Assembly (NCBI GenBank): GCA_910575545.1
Contig: CAJTFH010000001.1
Span: 124,001-188,000, forward strand
Direction: 5' to 3'
Length of the DNA: 64,000 nucleotides
Source of the DNA: Bacteroidales bacterium
Lineage (GTDB): Bacteria > Bacteroidota > Bacteroidia > Bacteroidales > Muribaculaceae
Every line of letters begins with the position of its first letter. Positions within the stretch are counted from its first letter, which is position 1. Positions 1-21,092 of this stretch are shown here, one piece after another. The notes under the pieces are model-generated. The model was not told the origin of the DNA. It searched no databases and worked only from the letters and a program-made list of their open reading frames with translations. Position numbers and translations under genes: made by a program.

Positions 1-1979
1 ACAGCCTCTTGTATGGCGGCGCATTTCTCATTGACACGCTGCATCACGGCTTCAACACTGTGGTCTTTACCTTTGCGCTGATTCCATGGCTTGAGCATCA
101 CAAACATCGAGCCAAGGTTGCTTCCTGCGCCACCTGCAAGAAATGAGAAGCCCGACATTTCGATTACATCTTGAACCTCCGGCATCTCTCCGATAATACC
201 GGCTACCTGGGCCACGACTTTATCGGTGCGTTCCAATGATGCGCCGGTGGGGAGTTGAACGGAGGTCATAAAATATCCCATATCTTCTTGTGGCACATAA
301 CTGGTGGGCCATTTCAGAAATCCCCAGAATGCGATGGCGCAGGTTATAAGATAGCAGCCGATGGCCATAGCCGGATGTTTTAGCAAGCGTCCGATTGAGG
401 ATGCATATACCCCGACAGTCTTCGCCCATCCGGCATTGAACCACCGATATAGAAAAAATCTGACGGGTTTTCTTTTTCTGAGGAACAACGCGCACATGGC
501 TGGTGTGAAAGTCAAGGCATTGAATCCGGAGAATGCCGTTGATACTGCGATTGTGAGTGCGAATTGTTTGTATAACTCGCCGGTAATGCCTGATATGAAT
601 GCTGTTGGGATGAACACCGAAAGCAATACAAGCACTTCGCCGACAACCGGCCCTTGCAGTTCAATCATGGCTTTTTGAGCCGCCTGTCGTGGCGACATCT
701 TCCCTTCGTCGACGATTCGCGCACAATCTTCCACCACCACAATCGCATCGTCGACTACAATTGCAATGGCCAGTACGAGGCCGAACAACGTGAGAGTGTT
801 GAGGGTGAACCCCATTAGCTTCATTACTGCGAATGTGGCGATTAATGATACGGGAATGGTTATCATTGGTATGATTACCGCTCTCCAGCTTTGGAGGAAC
901 AGCAGAATCACAAGCATGACGATAAAGGTGGTCTCTACAAAAGTCACAAGAACTTCGTCGATTGAAGCAGTGACGAAGTCGGTAGTATTCATCAGAATGC
1001 GGTAGTGCACTCCGGGAGGGAGATACGGTGCAAGATTCTCAAGCTCTTTCTCCACTTCTTTAGCAACAGAAAGGGCGTTGGCGTCGGATCGTTGGTATAT
1101 TCCAATCAGCCCGGCTTCCTTGCCTGAAACGCGTGAAATGTTACCGTAGCTTTCACTGCCGAGTTCGACTTTTGCCACATCTTTTAGCCTCAATATGTTG
1201 CCTTTGGTGTCTGTGCGTAAAACAATTTCTCCGAATTGCTGTGCTGTCACCAGTCGTCCCGGTGATGACAATGTTATCTGGAATGATGCCGGAGTGGAAA
1301 CTGGCGCGCCTCCGACAGCCCCAGCTGAAACTTCCATATTCTGCGCCTCGATTGCCGCGCGTATGTCGGCCGGGGTGACTCCGCGTATGTTCATAAGTTC
1401 TGGATTCATCCATATTCGCATACTATAGTCGCCTGCGCCAAAAGCGCTTGCACCACCCACTCCTTCCAGGCGTGAAAGTGCGTCGACCATGTGAAGCTGG
1501 GCGTAGTTGGTGAGATACAAAGCGTCATAACGTTGGGGGTCATCACTTTCCAACGCTACAAACAGCAGTATATTAGTGGATTCTGAGTTTACGCTTATTC
1601 CCTGCTCAGTGACGGCTGACGGCAGACGAGGAGTGGCCCGGTTTACGAGGTTCTGAACTTTGACCGTTGCATCATCGAGGTCGATACCGTTTCGGAATGT
1701 GATTGTGAGGTTATATGAGCCGTCTGAGCCGGAATTCGAGCTCATATACAGCATTCCCTCAACTCCATTGACGCATTGTTCAATGGGCACGCCTATGGCT
1801 TCGGCAACAGTTTTCGCATTGGCTCCGGGATATGATGCCGAGACCTGTACGGTTGGTGGAGAAATATTGGGGTATTGGGCAATCGGGAGAGTGCTCACCG
1901 TGACAATCCCTATAAGAATCATCAATATCGCCAGAACAGTGGCGAATATCGGTCTGTCGATAAAGAATCTTGAGAACAT
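1..1979 (-). CDS. RND (AcrB/MexB, HAE1 family) efflux permease, partial
   Basis: Inner-membrane proton-driven pump subunit of a tripartite drug/solute exporter. About 659 N-terminal residues are present and the C-terminus lies beyond base 1. It starts MFSRFFIDRPIFATVLAI, the classic RND first transmembrane helix, followed by a periplasmic porter region with the LPIAQYPNISPP signature. Further on, ITIPVSLIATFAVM and LAIAIVVDDAIVVVED mark TM4 with the paired Asp of the proton relay. It begins 12 bp after the adaptor stop on the same strand, so it is the third gene of an outer-membrane channel, adaptor, permease operon. Family assignment is firm; the substrate cannot be read from sequence. Confidence 0.95.
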   Translation of the reverse strand, partial: MFSRFFIDRPIFATVLAILMILIGIVTVSTLPIAQYPNISPPTVQVSASYPGANAKTVAEAIGVPIEQCVNGVEGMLYMSSNSGSDGSYNLTITFRNGIDLDDATVKVQNLVNRATPRLPSAVTEQGISVNSESTNILLFVALESDDPQRYDALYLTNYAQLHMVDALSRLEGVGGASAFGAGDYSMRIWMNPELMNIRGVTPADIRAAIEAQNMEVSAGAVGGAPVSTPASFQITLSSPGRLVTAQQFGEIVLRTDTKGNILRLKDVAKVELGSESYGNISRVSGKEAGLIGIYQRSDANALSVAKEVEKELENLAPYLPPGVHYRILMNTTDFVTASIDEVLVTFVETTFIVMLVILLFLQSWRAVIIPMITIPVSLIATFAVMKLMGFTLNTLTLFGLVLAIAIVVDDAIVVVEDCARIVDEGKMSPRQAAQKAMIELQGPVVGEVLVLLSVFIPTAFISGITGELYKQFALTIAVSTAFSGFNALTFTPAMCALFLRKRKPVRFFLYRWFNAGWAKTVGVYASSIGRLLKHPAMAIGCYLITCAIAFWGFLKWPTSYVPQEDMGYFMTSVQLPTGASLERTDKVVAQVAGIIGEMPEVQDVIEMSGFSFLAGGAGSNLGSMFVMLKPWNQRKGKDHSVEAVMQRVNEKCAAIQEA

Positions 1980-3170: not shown

Positions 3171-4598
3171 TCATTTTGAGATGCTGTTTATGTCGAATCC
3201 ACCACCTAATGCCTCATATAGGCTGATTAATGCAGAAAGGGCACCACCTTTGGCGGTTATAAGCTCATTTTCAGCTGCAAGGGAGTGCAGCTGTGCGGTC
3301 ACGACATCGCTCATGGGGCTTAATGAATTTTTATAACGGTCGACTGCCAGGCGCAATTCTTCGTCGGTCTGCTCTATAACCTTTCCGATAGCATCGACAT
3401 AATGGAGGTTGGAATAGTAGGTTGAGATGGCATTGTCAGTTTCCTGCACAGCGTTCAATATGGTCAGATTATAGTTGTCAATACCGACCATCATGGTTTC
3501 GCGTGCATTTGCCAGCTCATAACGTCGGTTTAAGCCGTCGAATATTGTCCAGCTTAATGCCGGGGCAACGGAATAGGTCAATGTCTGTTTGCCGAACATC
3601 CCGTCTATGCGATGGGCTGATGTGCCTATGCTGCCCTCTATGGTCAGTGTAGGCAGGAAATCTTTTTTTGCAATTCCAATTTCGGCGGCATAAGCGGCGA
3701 GTTCCATTTCTGCCCGGGCTATATCGGGACGTCGCCGCAGCAAATTGGTTGGAACGCCGGTGTTGATCAATTGCAGATATTCAGGGAGTGTTGCCGGGAC
3801 TGATAGCGTAGCATCGATTTCGGTGAAAGGGATTCCGGTCAATACGGCCAATGCATTTATGGTTGTGTGTATTGAATTTTCCAGCATAGGGATTGATGCA
3901 GTGGTTGAATAATAAACTTCCAAAGCCTGCGCCACATCCAATTTTGAGGCCAGCGTGGTCTCAAATCTTGCTTTGGCAATATCTACAATCTTCATCTGGT
4001 TTTCAGAGTGTCTGTTTGCTACAGCAAGCTGTTCCTGCAGCATACGCAGTTTTATATATGTAGAGGCAATCTGCGCGCATACAGAAACCATCGTACCCGC
4101 ATACTCAGCCTTGCTTGCCATATACCCCGATTTTTTTGCTTTTACGGCAGATGCGATTTTTCCAAAAAGGTCAATCTCCCAACTGGCAGATAACCCGGCC
4201 GAAAAATAGCTTGTTGAAGATGGATTATGATATGGCCGGGCAATCCTTCCGCTTTCTTGCGATGCAGACCATCCGGCCGAAGCACTTATCACAGGCATCC
4301 ATCCGCTTGCTGTCTGGCGTATCGAGTTTCGGGCAATCTCTGCGCGACGTATCGCCATGGCCACGTCGTAGTTGTTGCTTATACCGGCGGCGACAAGAGA
4401 GTCAAGAATGGAATCGCCAAACGACTGCCACCAGGCATCAGTCGCTTCAGGTGCGTCCATCGGTATTTCCGGAGAATAGCTCCATCTTTGCGGCAGAGTG
4501 CCGTTGAGATATTCTGCCATACCATCTTTTTCTGCCCCTGACATTGCGGCCACTGCCGCCAGACCGATACCAACAACACAAATAAACCGTTGAAACAT
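3171..4598 (-). CDS. TolC/OprM-type outer-membrane efflux channel (OMF)
   Basis: Outer-membrane channel of the tripartite RND pump and first gene of the operon. The N-terminus MFQRFICVVGIGLAAVAAMSGA is a signal peptide; the Cys after the hydrophobic core that NodT-type lipoprotein channels carry is absent. The body shows the two-fold OEP repeat: a first half with DVAMAIRRAEIARNSIRQ and a second with NLLRRRPDIARAEMELAAYAAEIGIAKKDFLP, the latter highly typical of the NodT/OprM group. At 475 aa it is normal in length. I found no clear TAnnTTTG element in the 170 bp upstream, so its promoter is unassigned. Confidence 0.93.
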   Translation of the reverse strand: MFQRFICVVGIGLAAVAAMSGAEKDGMAEYLNGTLPQRWSYSPEIPMDAPEATDAWWQSFGDSILDSLVAAGISNNYDVAMAIRRAEIARNSIRQTASGWMPVISASAGWSASQESGRIARPYHNPSSTSYFSAGLSASWEIDLFGKIASAVKAKKSGYMASKAEYAGTMVSVCAQIASTYIKLRMLQEQLAVANRHSENQMKIVDIAKARFETTLASKLDVAQALEVYYSTTASIPMLENSIHTTINALAVLTGIPFTEIDATLSVPATLPEYLQLINTGVPTNLLRRRPDIARAEMELAAYAAEIGIAKKDFLPTLTIEGSIGTSAHRIDGMFGKQTLTYSVAPALSWTIFDGLNRRYELANARETMMVGIDNYNLTILNAVQETDNAISTYYSNLHYVDAIGKVIEQTDEELRLAVDRYKNSLSPMSDVVTAQLHSLAAENELITAKGGALSALISLYEALGGGFDINSISK

Positions 4599-19587: not shown

Positions 19588-19608
19588 GAGATTAAGGGGC
19601 TTTAGCAG

Positions 19609-19643
19609 TTAATAGCCCTAATAGCTTTAATGGCCCTAATAGG
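19609..19643 (+). repeat. Two-copy tandem repeat after valS
   Basis: TTAATAGCCCTAATAGC (19609-19625) is repeated as TTAATGGCCCTAATAGG (19627-19643), 15 of 17 bases identical at an 18-base period. It lies just after the stop codon. No function is apparent. Confidence 0.5.
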
Positions 19644-19665
19644 CGTTATCGCACAAAAAGATTTC

Positions 19666-19698
19666 TAAGAGCCGTGGCTTGCTGCGGCTCTTATTTTT
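19666..19698 (+). terminator. Intrinsic terminator of valS
   Basis: TAAGAGCCG (19666-19674) pairs with CGGCTCTTA (19685-19693) around a ten-base loop and is followed by TTTTT. This is a standard U-tailed hairpin. Confidence 0.8.
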
Positions 19699-19888
19699 AG
19701 ACAATCTCTTATAATAATGCCAATAGAAGGAGCAGAAGATTGAGGAGAAAGATGAGCATCCGGCTCCAGAAAGATGATGCCAGAAAAACCGGAGTTGATG
19801 ATACGGATAGGGTGAAAACGAATGGCTCCATATGGTCAAGGATGCCGGTTCTGCAATCTCCTATGAACCGGAACTGAAGTAGATATAT

Positions 19889-20192
19889 AAAAAAGGTGTG
19901 GAGATTGCATTCGTCACATCTCTCATTCAGGTCTTGGCGAAACCTTTTAAGCTCGATGTGACAACAGCTCCACACCGAATATGTCTGATAGCCCGCTGTC
20001 TACAGCAGGCTAATGACATTCAGTGCAGATGCGATTGTCGACTATCTTCAGCTTAAAATTCTAACCGCCAAGTTTGAATGAGGAAGATAATTTCCAATAA
20101 CACCTTTTCATACCGCCACAAATAATTGTGGCGATAGTTAATAAGAAATCAATCCGCACATTGCAACTCTATGCATATATAGTGCGGATTAG
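19889..20192 (-). ncRNA. Candidate structured non-coding RNA, about 300 nt, unknown class
   Basis: Read on the minus strand from a TACTTTTG promoter element. Helices in order: (1) 20190-20182 with 20159-20151, nine bp plus a closing U.G; (2) 20136-20126 with 20121-20111, 11 bp with one U.G and a four-base loop; (3) 20012-20002 with 19999-19989, 11 bp with one U.G; (4) a long terminal stem, 19976-19968 with 19903-19895 (GGUGUGGAG/CUCCACACC), enclosing 19962-19955 with 19920-19913 (GUCACAUC/GAUGUGAC) and an apical six-bp stem at 19945-19929 with one U.G. The RNA ends in UUUUUU directly after helix 4. Each wobble becomes a C.A mismatch on the plus strand, which fixes the strand. I do not see the conserved cores of RNase P RNA, tmRNA or SRP RNA. 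6S RNA or a novel class remain open. Confidence 0.55.
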
Positions 20193-20197
20193 GAATA

Positions 20198-20205
20198 CAA
20201 AAGTA
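20198..20205 (-). promoter_or_regulatory. -7 promoter element (TACTTTTG) for the candidate RNA
   Basis: Exact TAnnTTTG on the minus strand, placed so that transcription would start within a few bases of the first helix. No good -33 TTTG at 20 nt spacing; the nearest TTG is about 28 nt away. Confidence 0.45.
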
Positions 20206-20273
20206 CGGAAAATATCGGAATATTCTGCTTATTCCAATCACATCTATAATCTATAGGTGATTACGGGCGGTGA

Positions 20274-21092
20274 TTACGGGCGTTTTGCAGAGGTGGGAGT
20301 GTTTAGGTTGTGATGGATTTCTGAAAGCCAGGCATTCAGGGTGTCGCGGAGCATGGAATCGCGCGGAGCGAGCGCCCAACCCTGGAACTGGTTGAAGGAT
20401 ATTTCCAATGAAGCATCGAGATTCGGGTATTGTTTCAGCAGTGGTGCTGCCGTGCCGGCATTGACAACCACGTTGTCAGCTTCTCCGATTGCTGTCAGTA
20501 TAATCAGTTGTTCAGAGGAATATGATGAGTCCTGGTGAATGTAGATAGTGTCACCTATTTCCCTGGCGAGGTTATGCAGACGGGTGATGAACGGCGAGCC
20601 TTTGGGGAGTGTGATTTTTTGTTTTGCAAGGTCGAACTGGCTTGAAATAGGGGTATGCCCCGAGCTGTCGCGACGTTGGACGAGCACTTGTCGGTCAAGT
20701 CCTATGGGATTTATGAATATATAGTGTGATTTCATGTGGGCCGTTGCGGGAATATCGCTGACAACGAGCTGGTATTTCCCTTTGTCAAGGCCTTCCAATG
20801 CGGTTTCGAGTTGAGTGAAAGGATGGAATCTTACGGGGCGGTTGTGTTGTGAGCAAATTTGTCGGACAATGTTATAGTATGTGCCGCTCAAAGTGTCGGC
20901 ATCCATTGTTACACCCACAGGTGAGATTTCAATTGCAACATTCAAGGTGTCGCCTGAGGCCACGGCTTCATTGCGCGGGGGAAGTGTTTCTGCGGAGCAT
21001 TCTTTAAGCATCAACATTATGCCTACTGCCGCTGCCAGCAGTAACAGATAGAGTGATGCCGAACCTTTCTTATGCTGTAGCTTTTCAAACAT
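20274..21092 (-). CDS. Periplasmic transporter-substrate-binding domain protein (SBP_bac_3/MltF-N-like)
   Basis: The 272-residue product starts with a Lys-rich cytoplasmic tip and one hydrophobic helix (LYLLLLAAAVGIMLML), so it is either anchored in the inner membrane or cleaved. Residues about 48-265 resemble a type 2 periplasmic binding fold (DTLNVAIEISPVGVTMDADTLSGTYYNIVRQI near the start; GKYQLVVSDIPATAHMKSHYIFINPI; DNVVVNAGTAAPLLKQYPNLDASLEISF). This is the architecture of amino-acid binding proteins and of the regulatory half of MltF, but no lytic transglycosylase domain follows. It lies 38 bp after the porin-like gene, probably in one transcript. The ligand is unknown. Confidence 0.7.
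   Translation of the reverse strand: MFEKLQHKKGSASLYLLLLAAAVGIMLMLKECSAETLPPRNEAVASGDTLNVAIEISPVGVTMDADTLSGTYYNIVRQICSQHNRPVRFHPFTQLETALEGLDKGKYQLVVSDIPATAHMKSHYIFINPIGLDRQVLVQRRDSSGHTPISSQFDLAKQKITLPKGSPFITRLHNLAREIGDTIYIHQDSSYSSEQLIILTAIGEADNVVVNAGTAAPLLKQYPNLDASLEISFNQFQGWALAPRDSMLRDTLNAWLSEIHHNLNTPTSAKRP

Follow-up and report, generated by a model that had tools for sequence, protein, structure and literature searches.

The trp attenuator lies in a leader position and consists of four strands, in which hairpins 1.2 and 3.4 (the latter being the stem before the U-tract) stand against the pairing 2.3. Put RNA, EAR and the targets of LoaP are processive antitermination leaders, structured near their 5' ends. 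The RNA element described here, found downstream of valS in a Muribaculaceae genome, resembles trp-type attenuators in its four strands, in the opposition of 1.2 and 3.4 to 2.3 and in its leader position, but its strands are long, its apical loops can pair with each other, and many unrelated genes are found downstream. With put RNA, EAR and LoaP targets it shares a structured leader close to the 5' end and, as part of it, a conserved-loop hairpin, whereas these systems are not known to have the four-strand exchange. It is also similar to FopS and GibS, small RNAs of Bacteroides, in forming a multi-copy RNA family in Bacteroidales genomes; according to PMC11697453, however, FopS transcripts are ~65–70 nt long and act in trans, while core lengths across the present family are 150–280 nt and most cores precede a gene. 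6S-flavo, Flavo-1 and DUF805 RNA from Rfam are likewise structured Bacteroidota RNAs, none of which matches an element.

The copy after valS was located in a 64,000-nt stretch of genomic DNA, referred to hereafter as the window, in which an earlier note had proposed a structured RNA of about 300 nt on the minus strand. The gene-free stretch 19885–20210 folds on that strand with a minimum free energy (MFE) of −129.5 kcal/mol, against a shuffle mean of −77.1 (sd 5.1; z −10.26), and on the plus strand with an MFE of −110.5 (z −7.05); 0/100 shuffles were as low in either case. Both the fold and the wobble pairs agree with the proposal, U.G on the minus strand being visible by eye at the closing pair of helix 1, in helix 2 and in helix 3. 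The hairpins that had been named, the GGUGUGGAG/CUCCACACC stem, the U6 run and the TACTTTTG element are all present in the letters, and the last of these is a Bacteroidota-type -7 element whose consensus, TAnnTTTG, recurs before other copies. Across 41 aligned copies, G-U cells outnumber A-C cells 177 to 17 in the local helices (112 to 17 when two columns that are mostly G-U are set aside) and 83 to 25 in the rod-only helices, with no such bias in the loop-loop helices (24 versus 22). The excess in the local and rod-only helices indicates that the predicted RNA strand of the element is the minus strand of the window.

The earlier description of four successive hairpins captures one view of the molecule, but two alternative folds exist, and it leaves out the 5' half of the core (~20028–20104), which is able to pair with itself or with what was called helix 4. 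The last compound stem is present and represents the local, terminator-like half of the switch proposed below, and helix 2 lies outside the family core. The parts of the window's copy are listed in Table 1. Where letters are present on both sides, 38/40 local, 20/22 loop-loop and 19/22 rod-only pairs are standard, so the copy can be regarded as intact.

Table 1. Parts of the element downstream of valS and adjoining frames (window coordinates)
Feature	Position	Strand	Basis or remark
-7 promoter element TACTTTTG (TAnnTTTG)	20198..20205	-	sequence; recurrence in copies
5' hairpin H0, AGAG loop (loop 20167-20170)	20150..20191	-	sequence, fold
Extra hairpin (helix 2 of the earlier note), outside family core	20111..20136	-	fold; upstream of model match
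Family core	19891..20106	-	R1 160.7 bits, R2 100.9 bits
Strand 1 (a 20095-20104, b 20083-20091)	20083..20104	-	sequence compared with alignment A1
Apical loop 1 (A 20076-20082, B 20066-20072, C 20050-20058)	20050..20082	-	sequence, A1
Strand 2 (b' 20042-20049, a' 20028-20037)	20028..20049	-	sequence, A1
Variable hairpin P4 (helix 3 of the earlier note)	19989..20012	-	fold; P4 pairs 81-84% paired in A1
Strand 3 (c 19962-19976, d 19955-19961)	19955..19976	-	sequence, A1
Apical loop 2 (C' 19945-19953, B' 19933-19939, A' 19922-19928)	19922..19953	-	complementary to loop 1; beats swapped partners
Strand 4 (d' 19913-19920, c' 19895-19908)	19895..19920	-	sequence, A1
U-tract	19889..19894	-	sequence; run of at least 4 T there in 102/109 copies
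Post-U hairpin	19845..19871	-	loop 19853-19861 complementary to c' at 19900-19908 (P8)
40-codon ATG frame, doubtful gene	19709..19831	-	starts 59 nt after core
67-codon TTG frame	19636-19839	-	overlaps the 40-codon ATG frame in another register

By sequence comparison, the valS-downstream RNA is one copy of a dispersed, conserved, multi-copy element. A blastn search of its own genome returned two further copies with 66–68% identity over most of the core, plus one short match, and 23 of 61 genomes (its own and 60 relatives) matched the stretch at E≤0.1, the weakest matches being short. An alignment of 41 rows (A1), drawn from 43 script-found copies from which L009, L015, L019 and L057 were left out by choice and to which the window's copy and L020 were added, served as the basis of the covariance model R1. 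This model matched 144/297 genomes of the window's family at E≤0.001 (covariance-model E-values are rough throughout), representing 25 of its 30 genera, with up to at least 6 matches per genome, as well as 34/295 genomes of the order at E≤0.01, 32 of them in other families. A further model, R2, built on 44 matches nearly all from the order's other families, matched 28/247 genomes of the class at E≤1e-4 (22 in other orders) and 15/247 genomes of the phylum at E≤1e-5 (three in other classes). The window's own genome holds at least 10 covariance-model matches at E≤0.01; since the searches scored the best candidates per genome, all such counts are minima. R2 was also run against 49 kb of E. coli K-12 as a small control and found nothing at E≤0.1. 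Weak matches on the opposite strand (20–32 bits), which can be attributed to the nearly palindromic core, do occur and were not counted as copies.

Scanning named genomes for an exact pattern yielded 30 stretches under the labels Muribaculaceae, Porphyromonadaceae, Bacteroidales, Bacteroides, Duncaniella, Muribaculum or Barnesiella, and two with Firmicutes MAG labels. We considered a phage or plasmid element and rejected it: copy L016 had no match in 50,697 phage records, one exact pattern had none in viral contigs, and the one plasmid-labelled record carrying the element (Phocaeicola massiliensis OY725995.1, 124.2 bits with R1) has neighbouring frames that look chromosomal by eye.

The core contains two hairpins with arms that nearly repeat one another, and it has two possible arrangements. 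In the local fold, strands 1 (a, b) and 2 (b', a') form one stem and strands 3 (c, d) and 4 (d', c') the other; in the alternative, a rod, strand 1 is joined to 4 and strand 2 to 3, while the apical loops, A-B-C and C'-B'-A', are paired throughout. The predicted local and rod pairings share strands and are mutually exclusive, and both show compensatory change. In A1, 93.8% of the cells of the local and loop-loop helices are paired and 39/65 pairs changed on both sides, compared to a shuffle mean of 24.6; for the rod helices the values are 93.3% and 27/48, compared to 19.6. Sliding the helices by 1–3 columns lowers pairing to 38–52%. Counting further pair types in A1 gave no excess over shuffles for the rod (241/500). 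A structure with all helices formed at once was judged geometrically impossible.

Because the helices had been picked by eye from the same sequences, a comparison of each strand's own partner with partners swapped in from other copies is the fairer test. This took 98 of 99 copies, strand c not being located in one, and ~10 of the 98 are expected in the top tenth without coupling. Loop 1 with loop 2 ranked in the top tenth in 98/98 copies (mean −36.3 for own versus −15.8 for swapped partners). Top-tenth counts for the remaining pairings were 81 for b' x d, 52 for b x d', 39 for P8, 33 for a x a', 32 for b x b', 30 for c x c', 26 for a' x c and 25 for d x d', while the control pairing of d with the region after the core gave 5/98, with the own partner better in 43/98. 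The 1.4 stem (a x c') reached 12/98, hardly above chance, and is therefore hardly supported. When the Muribaculaceae-type set is taken by itself, near-chance values result for a x a', c x c' and a' x c (6, 5 and 5 of 44), because these helices vary little there; a second control, c with upstream sequence, is usable in this set only (own better in 20/44), its energies being meaningless for the 'all' and 'order+class+own' sets, where some loci have too little upstream DNA. Another round of the test covered 55/70 Muribaculaceae-type and 39/41 order copies, near-identical ones having been removed, and there too the loops' own pairing came out ahead of swapped partners. In six further copies from the phylum search the own loops pair well, and five of these, L218 being the exception, beat all 98 swapped partners. 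In L219 and L220, which belong to other classes, the GC-rich strands changed together, and by eye all four pairings are still possible.

Read 5' to 3', copies present a promoter, often an AGAG- or AGCG-loop hairpin, the core, the U-tract, a small hairpin and, usually, a start codon. TAnnTTTG is found 45–110 nt before the core in 70/91 copies, compared to 9, 4 and 2 out of 91 for three control windows. Stems of at least 4 pairs capped by an AGAG loop occur in 21/91 copies (0/91 in each of two control windows), and an AGCG loop in 10/91. The distance from core to start codon has a median of 58 nt, with 55/88 falling at 40–75 nt, and by eye the bases immediately ahead of the start codon are rich in A and lie outside the core. 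A frame of at least 60 codons starts within 185 nt in 98/109 copies (a count that takes in the window's doubtful TTG frame) versus 47/100 in the reverse direction, and is missing or nearly so behind the window's copy and 11/109 others. Rather than being a lone RNA gene, the element belongs to a multi-copy leader family that normally precedes a gene.

The downstream genes are unrelated to each other and include lipoproteins, BspA repeats and TerB. Among 78 downstream proteins (from 94 non-redundant copies, with a frame start within 180 nt, each cut at 300 residues), Pfam assigned BspA-type repeats to 13 and TerB to 6, other families having one to nine members, mostly one. Pfam pointed to no pathway common to the 78, and hence no riboswitch ligand is suggested. 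By a crude test, 61/78 have a hydrophobic N-terminus; the share among other long frames of these loci is 46/106, but the comparison is loose, as such control frames need not be genes. No conserved protein frame runs through the element's own bases: all three forward frames are stopped in 97 of 109 non-redundant copies and one is open in 12, on which ground a protein-coding element was rejected.

The comparison of valS-downstream regions suggested in the earlier note did not reveal conservation at this site. In the closest relative (G009, valS 88% identical), the same next gene follows valS after ~125 nt with no element between them, and at least one R1 match is present elsewhere in the genome. 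We conclude that the element was gained or lost here. In the fetched valS loci of the other 12 congeners, some of them cut by contig ends, there was no such neighbour gene and no blastn similarity to the element. Behind the window's copy there is no long frame and no convincing downstream gene; a conserved small protein encoded by the 40-codon ATG frame was considered and dismissed, as none of the 81 genomes searched, its own aside, contains a match to the frame. The window's copy may therefore be an orphan. Just after valS, at 19609–19644 (+), lie three 18-nt direct repeats of the TTAATAGCCCTAATAGC type with 9-nt spacing. By eye, the stretch at 19700–19722 (+) and another just before the L028 element both resemble TTTAGACAATCTCTNATA, a possible insertion-sequence end.

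Able to adopt two exclusive folds, the element is probably a gene switch. We tentatively favour, at somewhat short of an even chance, a leader RNA that acts in cis as a transcription attenuator and follows the four-strand logic of the trp leader. Once RNA polymerase has left the TAnnTTTG promoter, the 5' hairpin would form first and hairpin 1.2 next. Should 1.2 be held, closure of strands 3 and 4 into the stem before the U-tract would stop transcription. If it is not, strand 2 would take strand 3, the apical loops would pair and the RNA would zip into a long rod, in which strand 4 is kept only by the weak 1.4 stem, so that polymerase would read on into the gene; in read-through transcripts the post-U hairpin (P8) could act as a lock on the freed part of strand 4. 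Termination at the U-tract, the rod as the ON form and a shared factor holding 1.2, perhaps at the AGAG hairpin, a candidate protein site, are inferences.

Folding calculations bear on this scheme in two ways. With each fold imposed on 41 copies, the rod was lower in 36/41 by a mean difference of ~7 kcal/mol (mean MFE −72.4 for the rod, −65.7 for the local fold), and by thermodynamics the rod is the predicted default. The unconstrained mean of −83.0 lies below both, which means that the two-fold picture is simplified. In growing transcripts, modelled as prefixes of seven copies, the probability of stem 1.2 was near 1.0 at 100–130 nt in four, 0.37–0.53 in the window's copy and ≤0.17 in two short copies (the a' window is possibly misfitted for two short copies), loop pairing took over from ~130 nt in short and ~186 nt in long copies, and P8 reached at most 0.27 in the ensemble. 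Pairing of 3 with 4 had a probability of 0.0 at every prefix length in seven out of seven copies, and we rate attenuation lower for this reason; the 3.4 terminator form would need kinetic trapping or a factor holding 1.2. Compensation is seen in both sets of the mutually exclusive helices expected of an attenuator, the GC-rich 3.4 stem directly before the U-tract among them, yet 3.4 is absent from the equilibrium ensembles. A terminator scan did not flag the U-tract site, its loop limit of 8 excluding a site of this kind.

The absence of the 3.4 hairpin at equilibrium is in keeping with a cis-acting leader working after or throughout transcription, through mRNA stability, translation or a termination-resistant polymerase as with put and EAR RNAs. 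Such a leader would occupy the same position at the same constant spacing to the gene; the conserved-loop hairpin near the presumed 5' end resembles those read by LoaP, and P8 could presumably form only after the U-tract has been passed. We nevertheless regard this as rather unlikely, given that compensation keeps a GC-rich 3.4 stem before the U-tract that would be superfluous in such models, and that the A-rich sequence preceding the start codon lies outside the core. That some copies have little or no frame behind them, and that the window's copy keeps its pairs nonetheless (loop-loop pairs included), could be interpreted as a trans-acting small RNA of ~300 nt, with the gene behind being incidental or reached by read-through. 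The frequency of downstream frames over the reverse direction, the peak in gene spacing and the pairing of the loops inside the same molecule all argue against this, making it improbable.

Absence from the same site in the closest relative, unrelated genes behind different copies and imperfect inverted ends would also be seen with a mobile or recombination DNA element, MITE-like or an attC-type folded single strand, carrying a promoter. Two compensated alternative structures and the promoter-to-start layout point to RNA instead, as does the one-strand G-U excess, though G-T in DNA is compatible with the latter; the low identity of the blastn copies in the own genome indicates no recent burst, and the phage and viral-contig searches described above were negative. 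We consider a DNA element very improbable.

A broader reading would be a Bacteroidota-wide layer of RNA control governing accessory genes whose acquisition was probably horizontal and whose products are often exposed at the surface, with one generic leader architecture, one common factor and a copy-specific loop-loop code that avoids cross-pairing in one cell; this extension is speculative and on balance unlikely. If the element is an attenuator, it would be a switch acting on a whole regulon, one that takes in surface lipoproteins, BspA-repeat proteins and further accessory genes in gut bacteria, and the covariance models and compensatory pairs make it directly testable by mutation.

The suggestion of a 6S-like RNA was not borne out, as the Rfam 6S models, including RF01685 (6S-flavo), had no match in the window or loci. 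In the window and 20 order loci, no element reached the gathering threshold of any Rfam 15 family, and with E-value limits (window 19600–20300; 15 and 12 loci) there was no meaningful match overlapping it; the sole weak overlap was the ylbH leader in L200 (26.4 bits, gathering 50, E 0.11). We therefore set aside a known RNA, and the element is apparently undescribed, another option offered by the note. None of the passages covered in PMC8040213, PMC7366714, PMC11697453 and PMC2864571 describes it, and an earlier unnamed prediction may exist. A structured RNA of this size, with at least ten matches in one genome, reaching other orders and classes and having no Rfam family, represents a large gap.

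Several loci carry a second RNA. In L118, DUF805 RNA (RF03081) matches separately at 1091–1156 (+), ~130 nt downstream of a short-type element, and is therefore not the same thing; in L133 a GAGTAGG stretch similar to DUF805 RNA also follows the element. These are 2/94 copies, in which the two RNAs may be used as leaders in tandem. Flavo-1 RNA (RF01705) lies ~380 nt upstream of the element in L197 (1048–1123, +), again as a separate match. Two elements ~350 nt apart, one short (3327–3485, +) and one long (3834–4055, +), are found in L057, and L129 has two elements in one locus as well.
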